Assembly (NCBI GenBank): GCA_019055375.1 | Contig: JAHQIW010000269.1 | Coordinates: forward strand, 1-64,000 | Source of the DNA: Parelaphostrongylus tenuis | Lineage: Eukaryota > Nematoda > Chromadorea > Rhabditida > Metastrongylidae | Direction: 5' to 3' | DNA length: 64,000 nucleotides | Shown here: piece by piece, positions 3,401 through 62,840 of the stretch | Layout: each line of letters opens with the position of its first letter | Numbering within the stretch: the first letter of the stretch is position 1 | Program-made: the position numbers and the translations under genes | The notes under the pieces: model-generated | Seen by the model: only the letters and a program-made list of their open reading frames with translations | Database searches by the model: none | Told to the model about the DNA's origin: nothing

Positions 3401-6400
3401 CTTTCCAAAACATCGGTTATGTATACGGATAGTTCAAGACTTATGCTTTCGAATGACTATTAAGATTCCTCTATGAGAACTTCTGTCGAGCAGTAGGAGA
3501 TAGGTTTGAAATTCGTGCTACCAACGGAATTGAACCGAAAGGTTAGCTGAAGGGTTTCTGACTATTTTTAAACGCCATGAAACTATGATACCTTACTGCA
3601 GTAGACTCCATAAGAGCAGCGGCGATGAACACGTGATGTCGACAACGATTATCTTCGCGAGCTCTCTTAATACGAGTCTCGCTGCCGAACCCCTTCGGTA
3701 CGACGAGTGAACTTCATCAACTGGATGTACGTCTTAAAGCAATAACTTAAGCATGATGACATGAATGTCATTCAATGTTGGATAATTTCATACCAAGGTC
3801 GGATCAATATGATCAATGGCAAGCAGATTATCGTATATCTTTTCACATTGTCGAACTTCATTCGTTCTTCCTCAAAATCAGCGTATGCAAAGTAGAGCAA
3901 CTGTGAGTGTTTCATCAACCCAGAGATCGCTCGATCAAACAGCTCTAGAACGTAACATCAGAGTAAGCTTAGCGGGTAGGAGATTGCCAGATGCCCTTCA
4001 AACATTTGAACTTACGCATAGCTTCAGCTGTCATTTGTTGGGCAAGTTTGACATCTCTCTTTTCTTCGAGCTGTTTGCCAGCCTGTTGGAGAAACAGATG
4101 CCGCTTCATACCACATGTCAGGGTAATAGCCGAGACACAACAACGATTGCTCGTATGCATATACCACTAAACAGAACAGTTTCTCACAGTGGTAAGAAAA
4201 GATAGTACTATTTCCTCATTGCAACCGACTCTCAACCTTTTGGGGCCAAGGCCTTCATCGTCTATTCTTCACACTTTTAGTACTCATTCAACAGTTTGAA
4301 AAGCGGCGATCACATTATTATATTTACCTCGGAAGAATTCTTATTTTTAGAGCGTCGCATCAGCTAAAATAAGATCACGTTTCACACTTGAAACGCAATT
4401 TTACTCGCTTGGTCTTTGTGAATGGTTTGACAACGGATTCTAGTAATTAATCGATAGTAGACATTTTGGTGATTCTAAAAGAGCGACAAGAAAATTATCC
4501 TTTGCACTGACTAGCCTTCACAGCCGATTTATATGGCGATATAAAATGAAAATAAGAAGCTGATCCCATATAACGACATAAATAAGCTTCATTCTACAAA
4601 TCTGATGAAAAAAGCTCAGGACTTTCTGAGAAACGGAGAAAATTTTCCAGGAAAAATTACGGAACTCTCACCATTTTGAGGTGGTTTCGAATTCGCCGAG
4701 CGCAACGCAATTCAAGAAGGCGTGAATGATGCGCAGTAAAAATGGAACGTAATCTTATTTCCCCTACTACAACACAGTAAAAAGAACTTCTCAAAAGACA
4801 AGGTCAATTCCAAAATCGCCGACATTTATACCACCGCATGACTACTGAAAGTATGAAGCAAAAATCGAGGAAGGCTTCGTCCAATGGCCGAAAATGGATT
4901 GCGATGAAGGATTAGTACCAAGCCCTTTCAGACATGGATTGAACAACTATAGGACAATCTATTCTCACCACGCTTTGCAAACTGCCCATATTCTTCGGTC
5001 TCCATGGGATTGCTCTTCTCCCACTGGATATACTTCTTCCACATCTCCACCTAATAAACGTCGGATTTAATGTGCAATTTAGCGAATGTAATGAGAAAAT
5101 TAATAATGCAGTAGCACTCGAATTCCTAGAGCAATTCACCTGTTTCATTTCAGGAGCAGTGCCACGAGGTGGAACAGACACAGCTTGCCGATTGACACCT
5201 CGAGTAACGGCTTCCAGTTGTTTGGCAATTTTTTTTGGAAACTTTGATTAATCTTTCAGTTAGACAAAACTTTAGCTTTCAATCTATGACAATAGTGCAC
5301 TGATACACACCTGATATTCCTTGTTACGCTCCGAAATAAGTTTCTTCGCCAGGGTTGGATTGACACTTTTCTCGTAGTTACAGTAGTCAGACCACAGCGA
5401 TTCTACGTTGACCATGGGCGTAGAAATTCCACGTTGATAGATCTTCCGTACTGCAGAGATGCGCTGATTTTCGGCATACTGTCCAATCGCCGGGCTACAA
5501 TAAAAAGTTGTGACAGAGAAGGATTGAACGTCAGATAAAAGGATAGAAAGACGCAGCTTTCGGTGTTGATTTATCCCAGGGATGCACCATTTCGACTTCA
5601 TCATGCATCTTTTGAAATGACTGAATGTATACTTGGCATTTAGAACTTACTGTAGCCTACTGATGCATCAAGTCAGCACTGCTATCCTCCCGAACAAGTC
5701 TGATGCGAATTCGTCGACCCGTAGGAATGAAAGGGTTAGCGCACTTTAGGCGCGAGATAGAACCATTGACCTCATATGTGTTGAAAGACACTTTTCAACA
5801 CTGTGGCATACGCGCATCACGTCAAATAGGAAGATCAATCGACCACGTGGGAGATGGTGTACACTTGAACGGATGCACAACTATTTGGGAAGCTTTTCTT
5901 CTCTGGATAAAGTTATTTCCGTATACTTTTAGCAATCATTCGATAGCTTGAGAAACGACGATTTTGATGAATACTTGTCTTCTGAGAAGGCCTTCTCAAT
6001 GCGCTGTAGCAGCGAAAATAGAGTGATGTTTCACTATCGTAGTGCTTTGTTCTCGCGGCAAGAGTCTGAAGACAGCTTTTCCCTAGACTTTTAGTAGCTA
6101 TTTGATAGCTCAAATTTCAACAAATCTGAAACTGTGATTGGTTTTTTGAAATTTCTCTCCAGAGAATCAAAAGAGCGAAAAGAAGACCACGACCCCAATT
6201 GCACTTTTCCTTGCACATAGGAATTAAATGTGCACAAAGAGCATGTGAACAGGTGGAGAATATCTCATAGTGTATCACAGTGACCAAAAAACTCGAATTG
6301 TGTTTCAAAACAGAGAAGAAAACCCTAATAAAATATCTAAGAACACTGTCCGCTTGCGAGATCCGGTATAAGCAGCAATTTTAACTGCCCCCTGGAATGG

Positions 6401-9400
6401 GCGGAACATTCGCTACTATTTACTACAAATTTTTTCTCCACCATGAAAAAATCTTCGTCGCTCATGGTATTAGAATTGTAAGAGAGACCACGTTCTACCA
6501 TTCTATGGGTATAATATTCTATTTAGGGAAGACTGCTCCGAGTGCGTAACACAATACTTTCTTCGCTCTCGCGGCGTTCTATGAAGATCTTTATAGAAAC
6601 TAAATCTAGTTTCAAAATCATTGCTTTTCAAGCCATTGAGTGAGTATCAAAATTTCACGTAAAGTCATTTAGAAACTCAGGCTATTCGAACAAAGCTCTT
6701 CGAGTGGAAAACATAGGATTCTTTCTGCTTATGAGGGGACAAAAGAAAAACCGATCTCATTCGCTGTAGAGGAGATTTTATAGGAGTGTTAATAGCCCTT
6801 CGAGATCATAGGCTACAAGCTACAGCTCTACGTCGTCGGTTTTCGAAAAACCTTTCTTGACGCTTTTGAAGAAGGAATTTTCGTGCGTTGCAGACACTTA
6901 TATTTTTCGCTGTGAAGAGCCCTTTATTGGACTATCTACAAGAAAAATTCCTCTCCAGCGAATGAGGTCGGTTTTGCATTTGTCCTTTTATAATCATAAA
7001 GACTAACATAGTTTATTTTAACTTTTCCTGCCACAGCGCACTAAAGAGATCTTTTCGGAAAACCAAGCACATTCTCAAAATCGCCGTCTCTCAAGCTATC
7101 GGATGATTACTGAAAGTGTTAGAAGAACCCCTACCGAAAGAAAAAGTCCTCCAAACAATCGCCCATCCACTCGGGTGTATGCCGTCCCGAAACGGGTACA
7201 TTCTTAGATTTCATGGCGCTTTGGTGTCGTGGTAAGATCTGTCCTTCAACACGCACACACAGTCGATGATTCGCCTTTGCAACCCGTGATCACCAAGCCA
7301 TGCAAACTTCCGGAGTCGGCGAATTGGTACCATACTTAGCCAGGAGTATGGCATCAAGCCTTCGTACGTAGGTAGGCCACCAGAGTCATTCGAGAGCGTT
7401 TAAAAGAGTAACGTTGAGGGATCTCTTAGATAAGGATATGACATATTTTGAGCCATAGGTCTAGTGCTATATAGCGCAAAACCTAGACCTAGACCGCTAT
7501 AGACCTATGGCTCAAATATGTCATATCCTTATCAGATTAAATCATTTTGAGCGGGTCTGTAAAAAAGCAGTCGATAGCAGAAGATCTCTTAGATTCAGAA
7601 AACTTGGATTATGTTTGTTAACTTTGGAAATCATTGTTAAACGCAGCAATGAAAGTAGTAGTAAGAAGCAAAGCTGGTCGTTGTTTGACCTACACTGTCT
7701 TCAAGAACGAGATGTAATCCGAATAGATGGAGTACGAGTTCATATCAAGTCCAACCTTGTCGGGAGCAAAGTCATACGCTTTAGCCATTTTCTCCCTGAA
7801 CGTCAGTGCACAAAGCTTAATGAAAATCACGACAACAAGTAGGAAGGAATACCCTCCAACAAAACGAAGTGAACCACACGGACTCTGCCTCTTTAACCCC
7901 AGCGCATTGCGTCTAACATTGACGTCTAATCCTCAGCATGCCATTGCTAGACGCGAAACTCCGGAGGCTAGAGACGCAGAGGCCGTGGGTCCACGGTCCC
8001 TTAAGGGTTAAAGCCAAAACCAGATCATATGAAGAAAGAGATATCTACCTGCAACGGAATGAAGGATGAAACCCTCACCTGAACGAACTCAGATGACCTT
8101 TTGTCTCTCGCACATAGAAAACGTAACACTTCCATATATCAATGTTTAAAACTTTTACCAAACATCGGTTGAATAACTGAAATGCTACGCACTCCATCCT
8201 GATTTTTATGAAGGGAAAAGTTCAAACAAGATCAACCACAACCCACGTTTTCGACATTCTCGAAATTCTTGCCGCGAAGCTGAAATAAAAGCAAAATTGA
8301 CGAGTCAATTCCTTCATTCAGGAAGGTATTTTATTGAAGAATAAGTGTAAAGAAATAAAATTACCTGGTGAGAGTGTCTTACCGAAGTCTGCAAAGCCTA
8401 ACCATCCACAAACAAGCGGTTGTGGATAGATGAGCCCTGTGAAAGAGGCCTTAAAGAGGCCCAGCCCCACACCACATGTGAATGTGGAGGCGACACTCCT
8501 TCCCATTTCTTTAACTCTGATTCTCCTGATTCAACCAACATACTCGATCGAAATCGGCCAACAATATTTATTCGAAAGTATTTGTGATTACGAGTAAAAG
8601 CATAAAAACTACGACACTACGGGGGGTTGGTGTTGCCGAGCAAATATTTATTATTCAAGGGATGGTAAAGGGGAACAGAAAGAAACGAAAGAAGAAGTGG
8701 CGGCGTCCGTTATCGGAAAGTCGGGGTGACATGAACAGCCGCAAGATGCAAGCCAACTGCAACATGAGCAGATCACGGTTGAACCGGTTCAATGTTCACA
8801 TCACAAAATCTGATTGCACCCGACGAAAAGACGTTTTCGTACTTACCTCGTGTTCGATGTAAGCCTTCCATAGCGTCCAGCATTAGGGAACTGCGTCACC
8901 AATTTCTCATAGAAATTTCGAGCCTGGTCTATCGGTCGTGCCTACAAAAATCGACTGAGTATAGCAAAGATGGGCGCCGAGAAGATTACTTGGGATGAGA
9001 AATGCGGTGTAGCACCAAGCTTCAGCCTTTCGGGACCATAAACTCAACCCCCTTCACCTCTAACACCCAGCGTGCTGCGTCTATCAAAGCATGCTGAGGT
9101 TGGGTGCAACAGGGTAAGCGTTAGAGACGCAGAGGGCTGGGTTCACGGTTCCGAAAGGGTTGACCTATCGCGGACAATTAAGGGCCCCTCGACTCCTCGA
9201 CTTTTCAAAGGTTTTTTTCGCTCCACAAACCGTTCTATCTAAAATTTTAGTGGTCACTCGAAAGCTTAAATCTCAGCGGTTTTATAACTGCGCTTGTTTT
9301 CTGGAAAATATCCTCTTATTGAGCTGCAGCAGCAAAAAATTAAATTACGTTTCATTTTGGGTTTGCTTTGTTTGCTCGGCCAAGCCCTATGGATCGCTGT

Positions 9401-11309: not shown

Positions 11310-11480
11310 GTCATATATATATATATATATATATATATTTATTATTTATTATTTATTTATTTATTTATTTATTTATATTTATAATTATTTATTTATAACA
11401 CATACTTATGTATGCACATATATCTGCATACGCGCATATATATGCATATATATATATATACTATATATATATATACGTAT
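11310..11480. repeat. AT-rich microsatellite tract
   Basis: A run of (AT)n, then (TTTA)n, then again (AT)n with interruptions. The Tyr/Ile-rich frames across it are artefacts. Confidence 0.95.
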
Positions 11481-11917
11481 TCATGTCTTTTGTGTTTATA
11501 TACTTATTTGAAGAAAGTGCAAGAATTAAGAATAGGGATGAAAAGCTATATGGTACAGATAAGAAGATTCAGAAGGGTGTCTTACTGTATTACTTTCACA
11601 GAATTGCGCTAAGTCTTATATCTTCATCAAAAATGATAGCCAACATTTTGGCGACTTCGCCTTCGTCTGAGCCTACACTCATCCAATCTTTACCCAGCTA
11701 ATGGTTGTGCATCATTGATCATGATGTTGACTATATTAATCATTAATTGGTCTCTCTGGATAGATAGCAAATGAATTGACACAAGTGTCGTAATGCTAAG
11801 AAAATTATGAGGCAACCTGATTAATAATCACAAGAGTTCTTTCCTCAAGCGCTTTTGGCGGCTGGCTGCTGACAGAATCGATACCATATATCACAAAAGG
11901 AGTGGTAGCAAAACAGG

Positions 11918-23800: not shown

Positions 23801-24430
23801 ACAGACGCAATAACATCAATTTCAAAACTGAAATGAACATTACAATACTTGTTGAGATGTTATGGTTGTACGTTTCAATAAAATTACTACATGGCTGAGA
23901 AGGCAAGGTAAAAATTGTGGTGATACGGTGAATAGCACTTAACGATGAGATCCCCGAGAAAGAAGATAGTGGATTATAAGTCCGTCAGGATTCTAAGTTC
24001 TACTCGTATCGCAGCATTCTTCTTGTTGTGGTTCACATTGTGACTTGAGATAAAATGAATAGCCATTGAGTAAACGTCGCAAAGTATTGACTTCTTATAG
24101 CATTTTAGGTAATATTCGGTTATGAGGGGCAAATGAAAAACCGATCTCATTCACTGGAGGGGAACTTTTCATAGGACATATCAAAGTTAGTAACCGTTCG
24201 AAAGCTGAGACTTCAGGCCATAGTCCCACGTCGCCGGATTTTGATAAAACCTTTTTTATGTTGCTAGAGGAAGACATTCCCTGTGTTGCAGACGCGCATA
24301 TTTCTACCCTGACAGAGCTCTTTCTTTGGACTATTAGTAATCATTCGACAGCGTAATCGCTTTTGACTTCAACGTTGTGCTTATATCCTAAAAAAAAACC
24401 GTTTCAGTGCAAGTGAGTAGGTAAAAAAAT
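20820..24430. other. Gene-poor stretch
   Basis: Dispersed repeat D near 23190-23430, a solo MITE arm at 24118-24260, and otherwise no supported gene. The frames at 21.5-23.9 kb lack splice sites and recognisable domains. Confidence 0.45.
24118..24260 (+). repeat. Solo left arm of the 6728/38179 MITE family
   Basis: ATGAAAAACCGATCTCATTC and the downstream GTCCCACGTCGCCGG match the left arms of the two complete copies; I see no right arm. Confidence 0.5.
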
Positions 24431-24441
24431 CGAAACACGAC

Positions 24442-24504
24442 GGGTTTTGTCCGACTGACGAGTTTGTAAGGACGAAACACGTGTATCAAGCTCTACAAGA
24501 GCCC
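24442..24504 (+). ncRNA. Hammerhead ribozyme motif, type I, core intact (copy A)
   Basis: Core CUGACGA (24455-24461), stem II GUU/GAC with loop UGUAAG, GAAA (24474-24477), a micro stem III CACGUG, then UA, with predicted cleavage after 24485. Inner stem I is GUCCGA against UCAAGC: the two pairs next to the core hold, then two mismatches. The outer stem GGGUUUU/AGAGCCC pairs, leaving an internal loop opposite loop II as in natural type I ribozymes. All invariant core bases are present. Flanked downstream by the shared repeat end CAAATAATAATGAAAGGATC. Confidence 0.75.
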
Positions 24505-24831
24505 TTACCAGACCACATGACAAGTTGGGTCAAATAATAATGAAAGGATCTGTCCAGTTTTAGGAGAAGACTTTTCATTACGTTGCAGCAGTGAAATCAA
24601 AATTATGTTTCACACTCAATTTTTATATTTTCTCGGCTGAGGCTTAGACATGGCTCTTCGGTATAGTTATATCGGTTACTAGTTATCCCAAATCTTGAGA
24701 ATTTTGATAATATAATTTTTTTTGAAAGGTTATCAGAACGCTGTGAGAGCAAAAAGAAGACCACAATTCATGCCTGAAATGCTACTTCGCCGCTTGGATA
24801 TCATAGATGGTTTATTATTAATTATAGGAAA

Positions 24832-25130
24832 GAGCGCATGTGGCGCAGTGGTTAAAGGTGCTCTGCGTTGCACACGAGGTCAATGGTTCGATCTTGCGCT
24901 CATGGCTCACCAAGCCATCCATCCCTTCGGGGTCGGTAAATTGCTACCAAACAGATCTCAGACTTGTCTGGGAGGATAAGCAGCACTGGCTCGGTTCAGC
25001 GGGAGGGCAGCGCGAGTCATTGTGAAGGCCAGATATGCATTCAATCACCTCAAACGAAGATAAAAATTGAAGTCGAATGCATCCTCAAGGATTGATCAAA
25101 GCCGAGAGCTTTATCCTTTAACCTTTATAT
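24832..25130 (+). repeat. tRNA-derived SINE, family B, near full length
   Basis: The head starts with GAGCGCA and pairs with TGCGCTC about 70 bases later, a perfect 7-bp acceptor stem. Between them are A-box GTGGCGCAGTGGTTA and B-box-like GGTTCGATC. The body contains CACCAAGCCATCCATCCC and the 3' end GCCGAGAGCTTTATCC. The same roughly 300-bp unit recurs inverted at 58418-58718. Confidence 0.75.
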
Positions 25131-28100
25131 AGGTAGAATCTATATGTCAGAGGTATCTTATCGCTACTCAAGAAATGGAAAATCACGAGTGAACCTTTCA
25201 CAAAGGCTTTTTGGCATAAAGAGTGATTACTTCTCATGAAATACTTCTTGTTTCAGCGGTAGAACCATGTAAGCAGAGAAAAACAGTCTCAACCCCTATT
25301 ATGCATTTCTATCGTCTGCCTTGCGAGAACCACAGCTTGAAAACACATCTTTTACAACTAGACATTTGTAATAAGGTTTATGTGGAGGCAATACTATTAT
25401 ATAGCCCGAGTAAATGGAACAGCGCGCGTTCATCATTGCTTATGACATGGTGTTTCCCCATCACCACCCATATTCAGAGAGAAACGTATTTCCCGCTCTC
25501 TGCAGACATTTCAGTAATCATTCGACAGTTCAAATCTCGAAAATTCAAAAGGTGTATTTCATTTTTTGAAAGGTCTTCATATTACGCTATAGCAGTAAAA
25601 AGAAAATGTTATCTAATACTCAATCATCCTTCAATGAGCAAAGCTTCCCCTCAAAGTTCCAGCAATTTTTTGATAGCACAGATCTCTGCAAATTTAATAG
25701 TGTTTTTCGTTTTCCAAAAAATCTCTTCATGCGCTACAACACTGAAATCAAAAATGAATTTCACATGCGGCGCGTGTGCCTTCCATCGGTATGTGGATGG
25801 GCATTGCAGCATTGACATCAAGCCTCAGCGCTCAATAACCAGTCGGCAGCTGAAATCTCGAAAATGTCAATGGTGTGCTTGTCTTTTAGAGAAAGTTTCT
25901 TTGCTAGCTTTAGCAACAAGGATAAAACTCTATTGCACATTTGAGTATTTTCAGCTAGACATGCCTTTTTCTCAGACTTTCACACCCAATCTATAGGACA
26001 GATCTTAGCAATCTTAAGGATTTTCTTAGTTTTTGAGAGAAACTTCGTAGTGCACAGTTATGAGTAAAAAAATATTGGGTTTTACACTCGGCGCGCACCG
26101 CACTCCACGTGTAAATTGCGCTGCGCGATCGACGGAGCCGAATATGAAATTCAATAATCTCTTAGCTGTAGCAGCGCACTAAAACGTTTTTCTCGGAAAC
26201 AAAGATTATCGTTGAGATCGTTGAGATGTGAGCTATCGATTGCTCATTGAAAGTCTGATTGAAAACTACTGCCCAGTGAAGGCTGCGTGTGGAAGAAAAT
26301 TTCACTTTACTTTTACAGCACTATATAAAAGCCATTTGAAAAATAAGATAAACTCCTCAGGTTTTGGATATTCAAGCTGTCGAATAATAACTAAAATCTC
26401 AAAAAGGAATAAAAATACCCTGTTTTGAATGTGGTTGCGAATAGGGAAAATGTACCGAAAATACTATTCTGGAGACATATATTTCTGATCAATAGTTTGC
26501 ATAATGCCAATGTTCTAAGCCTTTTATTGAGACCGGTTGTCTTTTACCGCTCGGAATTCTTCCACTGCCCACAAGCTTTCAACTTTTTTTCACTTACATC
26601 AACTTTAAGTAATTGGAAGTATACGAATGACTGATATAATAGCTAAATTGTAGTTATCGATGACCTTGCATCGAATATAGCATGAATCATCATTTTGAAC
26701 AAACTACTCATTGTTTCCTATTTTTTATTCACTACGAAAACTTTTGGGCCTTGCAAGGAATTAGGGAAGATCAATACGGGAGGTGACTTATGTAACAACC
26801 TTTGTACAAAGCAATACAATCGATTGAATGTCAAATTCAGTACGACTGCGTAGTAAACCAGCGTTTTTCTCTACAGAAGACACACCTAACTAAATCAAAA
26901 GCGTGAACAGGTAGAGGAAATCTTGTTCTATCGGAGTAATACAAAAATTCCGAAAACTTTTGCAAAAGGAAGAGAAAAACCTTAATGAAACAACGGAAAT
27001 CGCGCAAATCGCTCTAGGCGCATCGATTCTTGTAGCCGTCCTTTATGGCTCAAGCGAAGGATACCGCCGAAACGTACGTATGACTCTGACTTAACAACCT
27101 CGGTAAGGCTTGTTACACCCTCACAGACTAAACTGAATGCTTACAGCGAGATTTAAATGGGCGATAAGATAGATTCTTATATATTCTTTACCAGTCGTGA
27201 CCCCTCACTAGAAAATTTGAAATAACACGTTATCATGTGCTATCACCTTTAACAATGACTTCCCATCACATCTATAAACTAAGGTTAAGTGCGACGCGTG
27301 GGCCACTGATGAAAAGGGCTACTCCTCCGAAACGTACGGCTTTGGAGTATCAACCTCTGAGAAGACTTTAAACATTCTCGCAGACTATATTGAATGTATA
27401 TAGCGAGGTTCGAAAGCAGTCGATGAGATGAATAAATAGTGATAGACATATTTTGCCCTTTAGTGCTTACTTTCCTAATGCAATAAATTCAGAAGATATC
27501 ATTTTGCATGGCTTAGAATTATGCCAAACTCTGAAATATTGTTTTTTTGTGTCTCGAAATGATAATGAAGCAACGAAGGTATTGAGATGGCTATAGTGCA
27601 TAAATCAACTTTCAAAAGTGCAAGTTCCTCATTAGATGGCAACTTTGAGAACAGAAGAGAGCCGTCTTCTAACTTATGTCTGCTCCTGAAACATCTCAAA
27701 TCCCAGAATCGCGGTGATAATGAGCAAAGAAATGAGGGACGAGCGTCGCGGAACATTCAGTATGCCAGTCTGTTAATTTCTAAGCAGAATCAGCCCTAAA
27801 CATATTTATAAAAAAGAACTGACTAATTGGGTTAGCGAGAGACAAAACTCCACCATTTACCAAAGTATTCGTACCTCAGTAACTTCGCACCGCGGACAGT
27901 TTGGCGGAGTTACATTCATCCAAGAGTTTTATATTCTCCAAAACTCCGATTTTTCATGATCACTACGATCAATATTGCTACTGAGATAACCTATACCCTG
28001 AGACATATGAAATCTGTCTCTGCAGATATTTAAGAAATGATGTACTTAGACTAATAATTTGTCTTTTGCTTGAGCTTAATTCGTGTACAAATAGATTTTT

Positions 28101-39420: not shown

Positions 39421-39923
39421 AGTATTCTCCCAGTTATATTTCACTGCGTACCCTGGTGTTAAAATCACTCAACCAGTGGAAACTTTGTGAGTCAAGCAAC
39501 ATTGTGGTGATATGGATTTTTCGTTGTGTGACTACATTTCATTCTTTACGGCTGCGATTTCCGGTGCGTTGCGTTCTCGAAATTTCACAGATAAACTATA
39601 AAGGGATCGGCTAATTTCTCGCTTTGCTTGTTGACTATTCATTTTACCTCTTTGAATCTAAGAAGATCTTGTAGACTCAGCCAAAAAACAATTCATATAT
39701 TTTCTGCGTCAGATCATTCACAAAGTAACAACGGATAGAGCACTTATACCATGGGTGACGGAGCCTAGGCAGCACTTCAACTTTTCCAAGTGATTGAGAG
39801 GATATCAGCTCGTTTAATTCGAAGAAAATCTCTCGAAAACACGTTTCATGACAGACTCTGATATTTTGAAGTGTGGAAGAGATATTTTTATTATTTGAGC
39901 CAACTTGCCATGTGGTCTGGTAA

Positions 39924-39986
39924 GGGCTCTTGTACAGCCTATACAAGTGTTTCGTCCTTACAGACTCGTCAGTCGCGGCAGAACCC
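39924..39986 (-). ncRNA. Hammerhead ribozyme motif, type I, core intact (copy B)
   Basis: On the minus strand: CUGACGA (39972-39966), stem II GUC/GAC with loop UGUAAG, GAAA (39953-39950), stem III CACUUG, then UA with predicted cleavage between 39942 and 39941. The outer stem GGGUUCU/AGAGCCC pairs fully; inner stem I is weakened by mismatches. This is the left arm of a large inverted repeat whose right arm is copy C. Confidence 0.7.
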
Positions 39987-40202
39987 GTCGTCTTTCGATA
40001 TTTTTATAGTCAGTTCTCTCGGGAGCTCTGCTCCCTTACAGAGTGTCATCGAAGACGAACGCTTTACATTCTATATCAAGAGAAATTTTCACCTTCTCTT
40101 CGTCTTCGATAGCTCTCTGTAAGAGAGAGTTCGTCTTCGATGACTCTCTGTGAGGGAGCGGAGTTCCCGAGAGAACTGACTATAAAAATATTGAAAGTCG
40201 AC

Positions 40203-40265
40203 GGGTTCTGCCCGACTAACAAGTCTGTAAGGACGGAACACGTGTATCGGGCTGTACGAGAGCCC
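40203..40265 (+). ncRNA. Hammerhead ribozyme motif, decayed (copy C)
   Basis: Stem I GCCCGA/UCGGGC, stem II GUC/GAC and stem III CACGUG are perfect, but the core reads CUAACAA instead of CUGANGA, and GGAA instead of GAAA: G5 to A, G8 to A, A13 to G. Predicted inactive. Confidence 0.7.
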
Positions 40266-40369
40266 TTACCAGACCACATGACAAGTTGGCTCAAATAATA
40301 ATGAAAGGGATCTAATGAAATTTGAGCGTGCTCTCAATTAAGCACTCAAAGTAAAGGTATAATGTGGAA

Positions 40370-42000
40370 GAGATAATTGCTGAAATAAAAAAACTCCTTC
40401 TGAATACATCTGTTGACAGGAACTGTGTGATGAAAGTCACTTAAACAGAAGTTCCAGTGGACATGCAAATTTTTCAAGTGGCGAGGTGGCAAATTTGGCT
40501 TTCGTCCCTTATTTTGATGTGCGACATAAAATCGTGAATTTCCCCAATTTCTGTATATGTAAGCCAATCGAGATTTGTTTTTGTACATTCTCTGTAATGA
40601 AGTATCTTGTATAACGGTTAGAAAATTTCCCGTGACTTATCTCATTTCTGCAAGAAATTCTGGAAGGTCATTTAAAAGTCTGGATCGAAGGTTTTTTGCT
40701 TGACAAGTGATTAATCATACTCAATAAGTACCCTAGATTCAGAATTGACTAGAAAATTTCTCCTCAGAACAACAATTTAGAGCGAATATTTCTGTCTTAC
40801 AAAAGGAAACTGTTGCATTCGATGCAGCTCCGACGTTTTCGCCAGTAAATAACAGTAGCGTCCGTTCTCCACCTTAAAATTTGCCTGTTTAATGCATTTG
40901 ATTACATTTTGAATATCGAAGAGTCCTTTCCTGACAACCGTGCCTCTAGCAATTATGAAAATGTTTCAGAAAATCATCCTTTTGCTGTGGGAGTCTCACT
41001 TCAGTTCTGAACGACAAAGTATTTAGTGTAGAATGCTTCACTTTCTTCCAAAGTGTTTGTGAGAATTCTCCGATTAAGAATTTTGTGCTATCTTGTCTGC
41101 GTATATAACAGTGATGAGTTATATACAAAGAATTCAACATCGGGATCCGTGTCAAAAAGCGGAAAAAGAGTTGAAAATTTGTTTATTTTCGAAGGTTTTC
41201 TCCGTTTTGCTAGAAAATACGGATTGCTAGGACGTATGGGCGTTCTGTTTACTAAGAATACCTATTGGAACTTTCTTTCCACTGTCCTGTTTTTTATGAT
41301 AATTAAGTGCTCCATCATCTAATTTTTACCATACAGTTGTCAAGAGAACCTCTATGAAGTTTAAAAACTTGTTAAAAACTCCAGAAGCTGGGCGCAGTTT
41401 TCTCTTTGTTGGTACTTCTCAATGAGAAGGCCTACTTTTGGTAAATCTTTCAACGTTTACTCCGATAAATACTGACTTCCGCACAACTTTCTTCTAGAAA
41501 CCAGACATTTTAGGATATGTATCTCTTGAGCACTCTAGTTCTATTATAGTATCGTCTAAAGAAGTGTGAAAAATGAACTGGAATGCATAACATTCAGATA
41601 CGTAGCCCACGTGTCGATTTGCAAGTTGTTTAGCATGACTGGGAGTCCTTTCTACTAGTAATAAGTTTGTAGAAGCTCCTCAAATAGTGTCTTCTTTTCC
41701 GTAGCAATAAAGTTTTTTCAGAGATCTCACTGTATAACTGCCAGTTAAGTGCTCTGGAAACTCTGAATATGGGACTGATGCCACCGATAGTAAAACGCTT
41801 TGATCTTTCCGATAGTCAACATCTTTTCATGAAACAAACTCCCTATAGAAATCAACATTTTTCAAGCTATCAAATGATCATAAAAACCTAGGTAAACTAG
41901 GAAAAAATTCCTCGGCAGCAGTTGGAAATGGGTTCCTTTTTGCAAGACTATGTTTTTCTCAAGAAAGAAAAATATCGTTTTGTACAAGTGATCGTTCTTT
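40370..42000. other. No supported feature
   Basis: I see no gene or clear repeat. The frame at 41053-41322 is hydrophobic but lacks splice sites and family signals. Confidence 0.4.
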
Positions 42001-44799: not shown

Positions 44800-46600
44800 C
44801 TTTTGTTTGGAATTCATGCATAAATTTCCAGTTTCTGCAACTACTCCAGAACTTTCTTTCGAACATGATAATTTGTTGGAGATGTAGGGTCATTAAAGTG
44901 CTCTTAAAAATTCGAAATCTTGGCCAACGTACGCTCCGCAACAATTCAGCGAACACGAGAGCGAGTAACATTGTCCAATTGGGAAAATGTCGGAGTTTCA
45001 TCAAATTTTGTTGCTTTTTTCTCTATAACACAGCAATATCTGCCTTGAAACGTTATTGTGGATAGACGTCTTCAGGTCTCCAAACCTCGAGAACTGATTG
45101 AGTCAAATTGATAACTTAGTGTAGTGAAGAAATTCCGAACTTTCCAGACGATTTTTCAGAAACATTACAGAAATGGAGAAGCCACCAAAGCGGTTGTAAT
45201 CACTACACAAAGAAATGAGATTCCGCTATGTGAAATGTGCAATAACAAATTTTGTTCTTCGTTTCGAGTTTTTTCTTAAGACCACAGCTCAAATTTCAGC
45301 ATGCCTGATAATCATTTTTTTGAGCCACGCATATCAGACCACAGCTCTTAAGAAGACTCTCGAAATGGGAGACATTATATATTGAATATACTAGCCAAGA
45401 GCAATCGAGTGCACAACACTCGGTGTTCCCGAGAATTTCACTGGACATAGAGTGTAAAACATTCGTCGTCACTAACTCTTAGTGTGGGGACTGGAGCACC
45501 CGCAGAGATTAGCAAAAGACGAGAAAGGGTACGTGCCCGACGGACGAGATCGCAAGATCGAAACACTTGTATCGGGCTCTATAAGTCGGCCCTCATTGAC
45601 AGACCACTGACATGCGTGGCTCAAAAAATAATTATCAGGCATAATGAAATTTTGTTGTGCCTGCACATCATGCGGAAATTGCGGAAAGACGGCGTTCTGT
45701 AAACATCCACCTTGAAACGTTTGGAAAGATGAACAGGATAGCGTCTGCTTATCATCACATCAAACACATTCTTAAACATCGCCCATTGTGCTTTCCTGTT
45801 TCAATACATTGGCGATTTCATCGATGGGAAATATTTTTCCATCTCACGGCAACATTTGATGTCTTCATGCAGCTGTTTATTCGAGGACCCAATACTGATA
45901 CGATTTTCCGTTAACGTCCTCATATTGGTGGATTTTTGCTAACATATTACACGCCTAATTCTCCCCATACTAATGAAATTCTATAGATCGATTCAATTTG
46001 GCTATCAGTTTCCACTCCGTTGGAACGATAATTCATGAGCGTGCTAAATGTAAAAGGCTAAGAAGAACATCAAAGTTTCACGAACTCAGTTTTGTAGAGA
46101 TCTGTCATCGAAAAATTTAGCAATGAGAACTGCGCTTCGTTTCTATCAATCGATATCATCTTTGGAAGACTTTTCTCAGAATTACAGTTGTGATTCAGGC
46201 GCTTTGTCGATTGTTACAGAATCAGAAATAAGGCGGGAGCCGAATATAAGCCGAACAACTAGAGAAATTAGAACATTCATTGGAATTTTTCCTCAACTTC
46301 TTGCTCCCATGCAATCCATTTTCATTAAAGATTTGACAGAGATTTTTAATCTCGACCACTGGTCTTTTGAGCATCGCATTAGCACAATGTGTCACGAAAT
46401 ACGCCTTCAAAGATTATGTTCTGAATTAAGCGAGTTAAAGATCCTTTGAAGCACTTGAAAAAACCAGAACAAATCAAAGACCGGCCAAGGCGACGTCACC
46501 CTCATATAAGTGCCGAGTGCCGAATCTGTTGTTGTTTCGTGGAAGATCTCACACAAGAGATCTAGATAGTAGTCTTAGTTGAGTCTATGATACTTATTCT
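44800..46600. other. Intergenic stretch before the secreted-protein gene
   Basis: Holds hammerhead copy D (45527-45592). A 108-codon frame at 46123-46449 (RFYQSISSLEDFSQNYS at its start) has no splice sites or family match; I leave it uncalled. Confidence 0.4.
45527..45592 (+). ncRNA. Hammerhead-like motif with U4 changed (copy D)
   Basis: Stem I GCCCGA (45535-45540) pairs fully with UCGGGC (45572-45577). Stem II is a perfect GAUC/GAUC closed by the tetraloop GCAA. GAAA (45560-45563), stem III CACUUG and UA follow. The core reads CGGACGA, so the invariant U4 is G. Predicted inactive unless the base is a sequence error. Confidence 0.65.
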
Positions 46601-50167: not shown

Positions 50168-52089
50168 ATTTCAAGATTAGTCGACTTCCTACCGAGCGCA
50201 GATGGTGTGGAGGGCGAAGACCATCAGAGGTTGTCACATGAGGTACTCACTTCAAGTTCAGCAAAACGTGTTGGACGACTCCACTATACTGAAGTAAGTC
50301 ATTATACCATTGAAAAACACTAGCCAGTCGTTCTTCGCCTTTTCTCCGGTGTATAGAATGGACTGAATTCTGAATTTGCTTGTTCTGGACTCCACTTGAT
50401 AGTTCAACGAACGCCCACATAGCATGAATGAAAATTCGTCTGTGGACCATCGCATCGAATAATACGACACTAAAGACAGAGATGTCGAGATATTAGCCGA
50501 ATATTACATGTTACTCACCTTATTTTAGCCTAATAATGCAAGAAAATGGTCAATCACGTATGCCGAGATCAAATCAAGTTGACTTTTCTGATATATTGGG
50601 TTGGCCCAAGATTTCGTTTGCGTTTCGACACTTTAGTGGATTCAGCTGGCAGTTATTTAACGAAATCAGTCGACTGACAGCATAATCACTATCATAATCG
50701 ATGATACGCAACCGTTTGCTGGGAAGAAATCAAATGCTCTCCTTCCAGAAAGGATAGCGTGCAAAGAAGTTAAGAGGTAACTTTTGAGCTTGCTGTGGTT
50801 TTTGAATTTTTGTCCCCCGAAACTACCTCAGAGCATGGAAAAGATGCTAATCTGATGAAGCAATATTAGAAATTTTACTGTGATTGTGGTACCGTGGTTC
50901 AGCCAAGTTCTTCAAAATGTTGCCTGACGACTTTGCAATGTGAGATAGTCGGTCAATGCATGGTGTCTGTCGGACATCTTTCCGCGGTAACTTATTTCAT
51001 TTCGATGGCGAACGACGATATGGCGGCAGTGTTCATGTGTTTGTCAAGCTGCTAAAACATTTTCCAACATATAACAGTCTTTTAGCAACAGCCAGATTTG
51101 TAGAGAAAGAAAAACTAATGTAAACAATAAAGGATACTAGAATAAAGCTCTCGGCGCTAATCAAACCCTGCGGGATGCGCCAAGCAATCGTCTTCAATTT
51201 TTAACTGCGTTTGAGGTGATCTCGTGCGAAAATTGATTACATCGTTTTGAACAAGGTGAAATCAACTCATGCCAGAATCGTTCCATACTTTTGAATCTGA
51301 CCACGACATTCGTTGTATAAATATTCCATTTAGATAGGAGATGATCAAGAAACTGTACATCGAGTGAAACTGAGCAATTCGCATGAAACGATTAGATTTT
51401 CAACCATGTCTTATTTATCATGACTGACACAAAATTGAAGATCCGATGATTCCTTCCCTTATTCTGCAAACCAAAATCAGACACATCAGAGAGCAGGTCG
51501 AGCTACTGCAAGATAGCATAGCAAGAACCGAAGAGGTACGAGCTCCCCACAGTATCAATCCTAATGGCTACTGGTAATATCTAGGACTGGGATAATTTGC
51601 GGGAAACTTTTTCGGAAGCCTGAAAGCATTGCGGTTCACAAAGGTTAACTATCATGGTGAAGATTAAGAGATTCGGGTGCAGAGTATCAACACGATCTGC
51701 AATTGAACGATGTTCAAGAATAAGACAATGTTTTCAAATAAGAAATAGATGGGTGAACATGAGAATTTGTTTAATGTTCGCGGTTGATGGCGACGGAGTA
51801 ATGAACTTTTTCAAAAGTTCGTCACGATCAAAGAAATAAAAACCTGACGACCGATTCCTGCGTGAGATACGCATTAAGGTCGGCCACCATCTTGATGAAA
51901 GTGCTGGGGAAACTAGCCGAATGAAGGACATAAAGACATCGTCGTCAACGCGTATTCACGACCGTGAGAAGGAAGGGAAGCACGCCAGCACTCGCTCAGG
52001 GGATGACCAACTAAGAATGAGCTCGGAAACAGCCCTCGAAAAGTTTTATATTCAATGGCTTTTGACTGAACTACACTTCGTTTGCTAGT
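50168..52089 (+). CDS. Putative gene with coiled-coil segment, partial exon set
   Basis: Exon 50168-50242 after TTCTCTTATAG: ISRLVDFLPSADGVEGEDHQ then RLSHE, donor GTACTC. Exon 51481-51535: HIREQVELLQDSIARTEE, donor GTACGA. A 49-base intron. Exon 51585-51643 after ATATCTAG: DWDNLRETFSEA, then LKALRFTK after one missing base, donor GTTAAC. The last part, about 51840-52089, reads DDRFLREIRIKVGHHLDESA then GETSRMKDIKTSSSTRIHD and is rich in charged residues and Ser/Thr to a TAG; an in-frame TAA lies just before it at 51837. Heptad-like charge and Leu spacing suggests a coiled coil. I recognise no family. Connections between the exons are inferred. Confidence 0.4.
50596..51060 (+). mobile_element. 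Possible mariner-type end plus tRNA-like segment
   Basis: GGGTTGGCCCAAGATTTCG resembles a mariner terminal repeat. At 50886-50960 a block GTGGTACCGTGGTTCAGC and CAATGTGAGATAGTCGG resembles 13665-13735 (GTGGTACAGTGGTCTAGC, CAATGTGAGGTCGAGG). Neither end of an element is clear. Confidence 0.3.
51127..51245 (-). repeat. SINE family B, 5'-truncated
   Basis: Only the 3' body is present: reversed AAAGCTCTCGGCG, then TGCGTTTGAGGTGATC, matching the ends of the copies at 25130 and 58420. 5' truncation is typical of LINE-mobilised SINEs. Confidence 0.6.
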
Positions 52090-57445: not shown

Positions 57446-58417
57446 TACAGGTGAAACTAAGGAAAACTATTAAAATTTGGATAAAACTTTTTGGCAAAGT
57501 ATCAAAACCAAACTGAGACAAAATAGATTTGTTGTCAATAAATGTTTCTGAATTGATGGAAGGATCTTAAAACATAATCGCATCTACGGTCTGCTATCCG
57601 TTTCATATCAAAATTCGTTAACCGTTTTTATTAATATTATCATTTCGTATTACGGCCTCACAGCATGTTCCACTTTCAAAATTAGACTAACTAGGTAGCG
57701 CTCCTTTCAAATGAGAATAGACTATTTTTCCTCGAAATAGTAGAAATGATCAGGAGATGATTTTTTCTTACAACAAACTCGCTTCTCCGAATTTTCATGG
57801 TCTTCGAGTTTAGCGTTGAAATAGATCTCGCAAATTTCCCACATTATCATGACCGGATATTTTTCTTTTGGAATTTGTAGTTTTGAATATGGAGCCTTGT
57901 TTAATTGCTAGATAAGCATGAGTGAGAAGAACAAGCCACAAATCACAACCAATATTTAGGCATTTTATATCATGGTCTTTACACTTTCTAAAATTAGTCT
58001 CTAATCTTCATGGCGGAATACTTTACTATTTCAGCATTTGTTGCAGTGAAACACTATAGTTTACTAATAGTTTATGAATTAGTTTACTATTTTAGCAGTT
58101 GTTGCAGTATGGTAATATGTAATGAGATTTGAACTATTAGTTTTTGACGTGCACGTGCCATGAATTATGGCGAGTGTCGTAATATGTGAACCAAAATAGG
58201 CCGACAGACAGCTTCATTTCGTCGACGAATCTGCTGTTTTCACTCTTTACTATAAATCTCTCCGATCTCCATGTTTCTAGATTAACAATGAATCTGGTTC
58301 CCATTGTAAGTTACTTTAAGATTTTTTGAAATCTACAACAGATGTTGTGTGTACTAGAAAATTGTCTTTCTATTTCAGTGTTTCTTTATACGAATGAAAG
58401 ATGTTCTCTATAGTAAA

Positions 58418-58718
58418 AGAATAAAGGATAAAGCTCTCGGCGTTGATCAATCCTTGAGGGATGCGCCATGCATTCGACTTCAATTTCTAACTTCGTTTGA
58501 GGTGATTGAATGCATATCTGGCCTTTACAATGACTCGCGGTGGCCTCCCGCTGAACCGAGTCAGTGCTTCATCTTCCCAGACAAGTGTGAGACCAGTCTG
58601 GTACCAATTTACCGACCCCGGAGGGATGGATGGCTTGGTGAGCCATGAGCGCGAGATCGAACCATTGACCTCGTGTGTGACGCAGAGCACCTCTAACCAC
58701 TGCGCCACAAGCGCTCAT
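58418..58718 (-). repeat. tRNA-derived SINE, family B, near full length
   Basis: Reverse-strand counterpart of 24832-25130, with A-box TGTGGCGCAGTGGTTAGAGG, B-box GGTTCGATC, the middle GGGGTCGGTAAATTGG and the same 3' end. Any frame through it is a shadow. Confidence 0.75.
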
Positions 58719-58724
58719 TGTCGA

Positions 58725-60950: not shown

Positions 60951-61005
60951 CATGTGATTATACCTTTATTTTGAGTGCTTTATTAAGACCGCTCAAATTT
61001 CAATA

Positions 61006-61215
61006 GATCCTTTCATTATTATTTGAGCCAACGTTTGTTTTCGATAACTCTCTGTAAGGGAGCAGAGCTCCCGAGAGAACTGACTATAAAAATATCGAAA
61101 GACGACGGGTTCTGCGTGACTGACGGGTCTGTAAGGACGAAACACGTGTATCGGGCTGTACAAGAGCCCTTACACAGACCATATGACAAGTTGGCTCAGA
61201 TAGTAATGAAAGGAA
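61006..61215 (+). repeat. 210-bp element with about 24-bp inverted ends around hammerhead copy E
   Basis: Left GATCCTTTCATTATTATTTG then AGCCAAC; right TTGGCTCAGATAGTAATGAA then AGGA. Similarity to the 40.3 kb copy continues outward to about 60957 (TTATACCTTTATTTTGAG), so the true element may be larger. Confidence 0.65.
61107..61169 (+). ncRNA. Hammerhead ribozyme motif with A9 changed (copy E)
   Basis: CUGACGG (61120-61126) in place of CUGACGA, then stem II GUC/GAC, GAAA, CACGUG, UA and UCGGGC. Stem I has one mismatch (GCGUGA/UCGGGC) and the outer GGGUUCU/AGAGCCC is perfect. One core base from consensus. Confidence 0.7.
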
Positions 61216-61219
61216 CTCT

Positions 61220-62160
61220 TACGAGAATTTTGCTTTTATATCTTCACTACTCTCTATTTCCATTTTTTCATGACTTAATGCGCAATCTTTTTCAGTCTCT
61301 ATATGAATGATAAACAACAGGGCTCTAATATCCGATTTGCTTTTGTACTACGCTCGATGACTTAGCCAGAGATATCATCCATCAGTGGTTGCTATAGAAG
61401 AGGCACAAGTTTCATCAAAACTAAAGCATCGAAATTGCGCGTCGTCTGCCACAACATTTCACTCACTAGTGCTTCTTCTGAGCTCGTCAGTAAACTTACA
61501 TTTAAATTGTCGAATCAACATTTTGATACAGTTCACCCTTACCAACTGCCTAGTGTCATTACACGGAGAATTCAATCTATGTGGAGCTATCATAGTGTAA
61601 TCGCGCTAAGAAACGATCTGGGCAAACAATGAAAGAAGGAATGAAAGAAGTGGAACACAATCTCCTTGGCTGTTAGATGTTCACAACGTGTTGCTTATCA
61701 TGCAAATGGGAATTTTAGATTGTGTTATTATAACAAGCCTAGGTAAAAGTTGACTTGCCAAGCTTGCTCCTTGCTCTCCTCTGCCCCTCTCCTTGTTACA
61801 ATGCAGGGCATAATGTGGGGCGTGGGAGTCCAGAGTTACTTTGGAGTAACAACCTCGGTAAGGCTTCAAACATTCTTACGAATCGTGAGATTGTCAGAAT
61901 GCGAGCAAAGCTCGGAGCTTGATGGACCCGAGTTGCTAATGTACTATTCCGGTGCAGCACGCTTCAACATTCGAGGCATTCGCTCTTCATTTCATCCATG
62001 ATTCAGACATATCTTTTGCTGCGATAGCGAAAAAAGCAACAGTCAGCGATACAGTACGGCTGAGATAAAAGAAGGAGCGGGAGCCTCACAAAGGCATAGG
62101 CGTTGTTAGAGTTGATTACATATACATAAGCTGCCATTTATTTCTAGATCTCAGCTTATT
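61220..62160. other. Gene-poor stretch with repeat G
   Basis: Repeat G at about 61790-61900 (ACAATGCAGGGCATAATGTG, AACAACCTCGGTAAGGCTTC). No gene seen. Confidence 0.4.
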
Positions 62161-62162
62161 GT

Positions 62163-62570
62163 GGCTCTGCATCAAATCTAAGAACTGTGATAATGAGAAG
62201 AATAGCTTGAGAACTAAAACTTTTTTGAGCTCCACAAGGTTGGCGCCTTTTTCCTGATCGGTTGTTCTTCTTTCTGGTCGATGGAATTTCTTGGATGCTT
62301 GTGGCTGACGGTTCGGCAAATACGCCGTTTCTTCAAGGCCGTGCAATCTAGTCTAGGGACTGTTGAGAGTTGTTGAGTCCCTAGACTAGATTGCACGGCT
62401 GTGAAGAAGGCGTATTTGCCGTAACGTCAGCCACAAGCAACCAAGAAAATCCATCGACCGGAAAGAAGAACAATCGATCGGGAAAAAGATACCAACATAG
62501 TGAAGCCTAAAATAAAAATCAGTTCTTAAGCTATTCTTCTCAATAACACAGTTATTTTCAGCATGCTGAG
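62163..62570. repeat. Large foldback: two arms of about 190 bp around a 16-18 base loop
   Basis: Arms 62163-62360 and 62377-62570 are inverted and close to 90 percent alike by eye. The innermost 40 pairs are nearly perfect (GTGCAATCTAGTCTAGGGAC against its complement). The outer parts keep TTGTTCTTCTTTC and CTTGTGGCTGACG. Confidence 0.9.
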
Positions 62571-62719: not shown

Positions 62720-62840
62720 TAAACGAGGTTGGTACGCTAGGGGCCGTACACCGGTGTTTCGGAGGTTTCGTCCTCCTCGTCGGTGACCCCGCCCCACCAT
62801 TAAGCCCTGCATTGTAGCAAGGAGGGGAGGCGTATGTGGT
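62720..62840 (-). repeat. Repeat family G, reversed copy
   Basis: Reverse strand shows CTTGCTACAATGCAGGGC, CCGACGAGGAGGACG and CTCCGAAACACCGGTG, as in the plus-strand copies at 27.3 and 61.8 kb. Confidence 0.5.

Follow-up and report, generated by a model that had tools for sequence, protein, structure and literature searches.

What kind of element brought a hammerhead ribozyme motif to positions 24442–24504 of contig JAHQIW010000269.1 of the nematode Parelaphostrongylus tenuis, and can this copy still work? The stretch analysed, positions 1 to 64,000 of the contig, is called the window. Our analysis revealed that the motif is real and that it is a relic of a retrozyme family, F2, with a unit of 319 nucleotides (nt). 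We estimate at about three in four the probability that these retrozymes have been moved by the machinery of Penelope-like elements (PLEs) through two-ended target priming, in which both target 3′ ends would be extended on the element RNA. The original prediction for this locus, made from the sequence letters, missed that the copy is a fragment of such a unit, that the family often stands in palindromic copies with target duplications, and that most stem III inserts are self-complementary.

The copy at 24442–24504 is a decayed type I hammerhead on the forward strand, as judged from sequence, fold and Rfam. Its CUGACGA core occupies 24455–24461 and its GAAA 24474–24477; stem II (24462–24465 with 24470–24473) bears a GUAA loop, a short stem III is followed by GUA with a predicted cut after A24485, and an outer stem joins 24442–24448 to 24498–24504, G-U pairs included. 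The core was thus rightly called intact, but the copy as a whole is not: two A-C mismatches interrupt inner stem I (24449–24454 with 24486–24491), and the minimum-energy fold of the copy lacks the hammerhead. Stems I and II and a bulge of 6 nt do appear in the minimum-energy fold of the intact copy at locus L050. The conserved core and three stems in type I order are found in the family; the copy at 24442–24504 fails in stem I. The one Rfam match of this copy, to Hammerhead_3, is weak (22.8 bits; cut-off 48.5), and all hammerhead copies in the window fell below the type I gathering cut-off.

The bare motif is weak evidence alone, because the pattern CTGANGAG..CGAAA matched twice in the window against 0.39 expected, and two matches were reached in 3 of 100 shuffles. 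A chance motif was ruled out by homology (a 131-bp match, E = 1e-41) together with the strict hammerhead descriptor described below. The copy is enclosed by a one-armed F2 insertion at 24411–24561 (forward strand), which runs from unit position 247 to 76 and has its 3′ end at site A, one of two preferred outer sites of the family.

The family extends across the assembly (481.5 Mb, 5105 contigs), from which we examined loci about 10 kb long (20) and about 1 kb long (38), and two more. An Infernal search of the genome with the Rfam type I hammerhead model RF00163, one of the checks that had been proposed, yielded 31 matches at E ≤ 1e-3, 20 of them above the cut-off (74 of 119,811 loose candidates scored). 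F2 copies scored 28–34.9 bits; loci L065 and L078 pass the cut-off of 34, and the other copies listed scored 28–32. These results uphold the prediction that the nematode repeat holds a family of type I hammerheads: copies match the model in core, stems and order, many of them above or near the cut-off, and differ from it in a very short stem III and in window copies that stay below the cut-off. A 160-bp probe from the window confirmed that the family is repeated across the genome, as predicted, with 40 of the 42 matches listed at 93–100% identity (40 of 1,699 first-look candidates scored). The count of five related copies in 64 kb was also correct, but these copies are the arms of four insertions.

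A strict hammerhead descriptor found 27 motifs (25 distinct) in the window and the 20 longer loci, and none in each of five dinucleotide shuffles; it had no match within the 64-kb window itself. With the loci fetched later, 53 strict motifs were found in 291 kb, duplicate loci included, and 21 of the 38 F2 loci hold at least one. The proposed covariation check was also borne out: in the 23 distinct motifs, the variable positions of all three stems (I, II and III) hold more than one kind of standard pair, and pairs II-1 and III-1 are invariant, in a count that leans towards pairs because the descriptor itself demands pairing. In 49 of the 53 motifs, and in 19 of the 23 distinct ones, stem III carries an insert that is exactly complementary to itself; such inserts span several families (CACGTG, TAGGCGCCTA, CACCGGTG and CGTACG). 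Since a hairpin does not require self-complementary central bases, these inserts point to dimeric action and suggest that the hammerheads may act as dimers through stem III. Minimal type I hammerheads of PLEs act as dimers according to the available text of a review (PMC7761336).

The units have the anatomy of retrozymes. A second family, F1, has a unit of 285 bp, seen in a head-to-tail array at L035 whose units are 97–99% identical with nothing between them and which has a 12-bp duplication. The F2 unit of 319 bp was taken from L039, and F2 units join head-to-tail at about 319 bp in L047 and L050. The guanine-plus-cytosine (GC) content of the 285- and 319-nt units is 44% and 43%, respectively, and that of the window about 40%. 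A hairpin lies directly 3′ of the ribozyme; site A is in the hairpin loop, and site B beyond the hairpin. BLAST comparison of F1 with F2 showed that the hairpin 3′ arm through site B is shared (E = 7e-6); weak matches came from the ribozyme core (E = 0.15) and from the hairpin 5′ arm GGCTCAAA (E = 7.6), and nothing else was found on that strand up to E = 10. Of 117 mapped segments, 38 exceed one unit and 106 cross the cleavage site, so the template was multimeric, or circular and joined there.

Metazoan retrozymes without long terminal repeats (LTRs), as described in the available text of PMC7229834, share with these units the type I hammerhead, a unit length of 170–400 nt, tandem copies, a GC content under 50%, target duplications of more than 4 bp and coexisting PLEs. 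Unlike here, neither inverted copies nor nematodes are named in its main text, whereas the present families include many antisense/sense palindromes with two preferred outer sites. By their sequence, the units fit this class of retrozymes, and they would be expressed as unit-length circular RNA. They are too short for the open frame with reverse transcriptase (RT) and GIY-YIG domains that marks a PLE; separate elements of the genome possess such a frame.

Both units, made circular, were mapped onto all loci, giving 76 elements and, after removal of five duplicated loci and joining of neighbours, 69 insertions. Left out of the counts were L024 (the reverse complement of L023), L041–L043 (the window's insertion, with the same duplication), L044 and L049 (junctions the same as at other loci), and L079 remained unclassed as it is cut by the locus ends. 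The 69 insertions comprise 42 two-armed and 27 one-armed ones. In every one of the 42 two-armed insertions the antisense arm precedes the sense arm, with the RNA 3′ side outward. A third family, F3, is represented in L035 by an insertion that likewise has two outward hammerheads, and by its 13-bp duplication (AATTCACGAATTA). The outer ends cluster: 78 of 84 fall in wide intervals around site A (F1 28–62, F2 50–82) or site B (F1 76–122, F2 100–135), which jointly make up 29% and 22% of the units, and site B lies about 50 nt downstream of site A. Moreover, 33 of the 42 two-armed insertions combine one A end with one B end, a number that random re-pairing of ends did not reach (mean 18.3, maximum 32 in 100,000 trials). 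A later F1 insertion, L080, has ends at 94 and 51, again A and B. The inner junctions, in contrast, are scattered over the whole unit.

Exact target duplications of 9–15 bp flank 20 of 65 insertions, about a third, and 10 of these are 12 or 13 bp long; the 65 are those of the 69 that remain when insertions less than 45 bases from a locus end are left out. When right ends were reassigned, duplications of 9 bp or more were found in 0–3 of 65. No duplication longer than 7 bp was found at the palindromes of L032 (3424–3702, another hammerhead kind) and L023 (716–928). MicroRNA matches of Rfam in L032 were rejected, as they fall on the palindrome. L023 and L024 (contig C821) are apparent reverse complements about 19 kb apart, which may be an inverted duplication or an assembly artefact.

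The kinship to retrozymes and PLEs that had been proposed from the motif is supported both by this anatomy and by PLEs in the same genome. A GIY-YIG search gave 1,723 first-look candidates; 150 were scored, all 150 above the cut-off, with frames of up to 902 amino acids. A search with the RT-side piece of a PLE relic at L035 gave 5,865 first-look candidates, of which 150 were scored and listed. Fifty-one GIY-YIG matches share a contig with a listed RT match (the other 99 lie on contigs without one in these capped lists). For 37 of the 51, the RT match is found 274–298 nt upstream in the same orientation, and in 34 cases its frame equals that of GIY-YIG in length; the RT set used for this adjacency was about a third of the 150 listed, by eye covering the shared contigs. 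A single open frame holds both RT and GIY-YIG at, for example, C87:91574–92314, C986 and C3882. Neighbours within 6 kb, among the matches listed, were oriented minus/plus in 20 cases for GIY-YIG (plus/minus in none, minus/minus in one and plus/plus in one) and in 20 cases for RT (plus/minus in none, minus/minus in one); the two counts share five contigs, and two pairs on C3034 look like a duplication. Autonomous PLEs thus often stand in the same outward layout as the retrozymes.

The decayed PLE relic at L035 (6079–6900) adjoins the F1 retrozyme array. Pfam matches on its pieces are weak and under cut-off (GIY-YIG 13.8 bits, RVT_1 11.7 bits), and its identity rests instead on the genome searches with GIY-YIG and RT, their adjacency and the domains of its relatives. 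Its sole database match bears GIY-YIG and PF26215, and many relatives of that match bear RVT_1, PF26215 and GIY-YIG. Those named, among 120 of 170 relatives, come from strongylid nematodes (Ancylostoma, Haemonchus, Necator, Heligmosomoides, Nippostrongylus and Angiostrongylus). The P. tenuis genome paper lists the repeats as long interspersed nuclear elements (LINEs), DNA transposons, LTR elements and short interspersed nuclear elements (SINEs), and Penelope is unnamed in its main text (PMC10940269). A frame of an RTE-type RT was also observed at L033, 99% identical to P. tenuis KIN20_027010.

A close parallel is PAc, the PLE of the green anole. Its protein cuts and extends both target strands in vitro, initiates reverse transcription from two neighbouring sites inside its RNA, within a stem-loop region that lies downstream of a hammerhead, and is predicted to be a dimer, according to the available text of PMC11167929. 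The likeness to the present elements lies in the two adjacent start sites downstream of the hammerhead and in the extension of both target strands. The differences are that PAc is autonomous and was studied in vitro, that its sites are 30–40 bp apart as against about 50 nt here, and that the available text describes start sites that do not differ between strands and does not describe palindromic genomic copies. In twin priming by L1, both target ends prime on the element RNA and an inverted junction results, which lies in the 5′ part of a linear RNA. Here, by contrast, the two arms span the same part of the element, and each of them starts internally.

These observations suggest the following cycle. 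Tandem copies would be transcribed, and the hammerheads would cut the RNA, probably as dimers via the self-complementary stem III, after which unit RNAs could be joined into circles. The PLE reverse transcriptase/GIY-YIG endonuclease would bind the region of the hairpin that follows the ribozyme on its 3′ side and would cut both target strands, typically about 12–13 bp apart. Each target 3′ end would then prime synthesis on the RNA, in most cases with site A as the start for one end and site B for the other, and the two antisense cDNAs would meet at a variable point, leaving an antisense-then-sense palindrome between target duplications. Cleavage, circularisation, use of the PLE protein and the serving of both ends by one RNA are steps that we infer. 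In a more specific form, the palindromes would record two-ended integration by a PLE dimer seated on one circular RNA, with one protomer per strand starting at A or B; we offer this form tentatively, at somewhat less than an even chance.

Several findings weigh against the proposal. The wide intervals for A and B were drawn after the data had been seen. Of the 42 two-armed insertions, 9 are not A plus B (two AA, one BB and six with one end outside both intervals). When narrower intervals fixed beforehand, making up 14.7% of the unit, were applied to 14 two-armed F2 insertions fetched later, they took in 22 of 28 ends; 8 of these insertions were A plus B, and the other 6 failed. The 160-bp probe ends near unit position 76, which favours arms passing A; among 19 two-armed insertions fetched otherwise (L021–L040 and the window, one of them the probe source), 15 were A plus B. 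Some arms were mapped at 60–75% identity, so that their ends are approximate, and 45 of the 65 insertions are without an exact duplication of 9 bp or more. On the ribozyme side, the hammerhead of L039, strict by sequence, folds otherwise at minimum energy (z = −0.1). On the PLE side, GIY-YIG is a broad family that also gives matches in 12 of 14 control genomes, 14 of the 51 GIY-YIG matches have no RT match nearby among the matches listed, and no P. tenuis protein appears among the 120 relatives listed (of 170). Finally, in the available account of PAc, insertion persists when the hammerhead is mutated, and the main substrate is RNA that has not been processed (PMC11167929). A circle is therefore not required, and it is the weakest step of the proposed cycle.

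This last point leads to the alternative that survives best, in which the same elements moved by two-ended priming on a linear multimeric or uncleaved template, with a hammerhead dispensable for transposition. Tandem copies able to yield multimeric transcripts do exist (L035), but long arrays are few among the 69 mapped insertions. Furthermore, pairing is kept through both-sided changes across families, which, together with the strict motif in 21 of the 38 F2 loci, suggests selection on the hammerheads. We regard a linear template as unlikely, while giving it real weight. The units could also be fragments of the PLE's own repeat (pseudo-LTR), with no separate retrozyme, since PLE repeats carry type I hammerheads (PMC11167929; PMC7761336, in the text available of both) and PLEs are abundant here. 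However, units join directly at 285 bp in L035 and at about 319 bp in L047 and L050, and F1 and F2 are unlike outside the ribozyme and hairpin region, which makes this origin improbable.

The inner junctions bear on a third possibility, snap-back, in which one target end is primed and the cDNA folds back to copy itself. A few inner junctions only some nt apart (1/2 in L032, 267/264 in L031) have the form that snap-back would give. The offsets between the two inner junctions nevertheless spread over 1–317 nt, and the arm ends are usually about 50 nt apart, near a second preferred site (33 of 42), and we give this route little credence. A miniature inverted-repeat transposable element (MITE) or fold-back DNA transposon with a chance hammerhead in its terminal inverted repeats would account for the palindromic layout and the target duplications, but is very improbable given unequal arms in place of fixed symmetrical terminal inverted repeats, differing inner junctions, arms longer than one unit, one-armed and head-to-tail copies, and exact duplications that vary from 9 to 15 bp.

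Priming of both target ends by PLE machinery thus remains our preferred explanation, and the insertion mode, two-armed with two outer sites, is the new point of this study. Metazoan non-LTR retrozymes were already known, and in the available text of PMC7229834 their mobility is a hypothesis, with an RT of a LINE or PLE acting on circular RNA. Our literature search found no paper on nematode retrozymes or genomic nematode hammerheads, as judged partly by title or the start of the abstract, and none on twin priming in Penelope elements, as judged by title. This study extends hammerhead retrozymes to a strongylid nematode. It also connects what a PLE does in vitro, starting at two internal sites and extending both strands, with a footprint in nature: the copies in the genome may be a record of the reaction, from which start sites, target stagger and polarity can be read computationally, and the partnership of PLEs and retrozymes becomes directly testable. 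If the more specific form of the proposal, with a PLE dimer on one circular RNA, is true, autonomous PLEs and retrozymes of strongylid nematodes would share an integration mode, and PLE-type integration would differ from that of R2 and LINE-1, for which priming on the bottom strand is reported.

The window holds further members of these families. A two-armed F2 insertion at 39885–40362 is flanked by the target-site duplication TGTGGAAGAGATA on the left (39872–39884) and right (40363–40375); its antisense arm (39885–40094, reverse strand) has its outer end at site A, an intact core at 39966–39972 and an altered stem I, and its sense arm (40126–40362, forward strand) has its outer end at site B and a core mutated at 40216–40222. 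A second two-armed F2 insertion, at 60959–61230, consists of a truncated antisense arm (60959–61032, reverse strand) with its outer end at site B and a sense arm (61032–61230, forward strand) with a mutated core, CUGACGG. A divergent F2 relative, F5, was mapped at 67% identity at 45346–45652 (forward strand), with a relic CGGACGA at 45541–45547. An F1 relic at 7432–7582, antisense then sense, lies within a 12-bp duplication, GATCTCTTAGAT, at 7420–7431 and 7583–7594. Two other hammerhead relics are F3-like (62740–62796, reverse strand, CCGACGA at 62777–62783, stem III insert CACCGGTG) and F4-like (27300–27350, forward strand, CTGATGA at 27306, with CGTACG).

The 160 bp at 40163–40322 are 100% identical to C195:154683–154842, with the same target duplication, 114 kb away on one contig, and a copy with the same duplication also occurs on C201 and C2832. 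These identical copies with a shared duplication represent either segmental duplication or assembly redundancy. An imperfect palindrome of about 380 bp (82%) was observed at 62180–62556; the scans detected no hammerhead in it and no duplication longer than 5 bp around it, and it was omitted from the family. MicroRNA and pestivirus matches of Rfam at 11397–11497 were rejected, as they fall below the cut-offs on an AT-rich microsatellite. A repeat at 24829–25126, with a tRNA-like start by eye, is SINE-like; it has a copy at 58416–58719 (reverse strand, 89%) and partial copies at 51129–51220 and 5536–5780.
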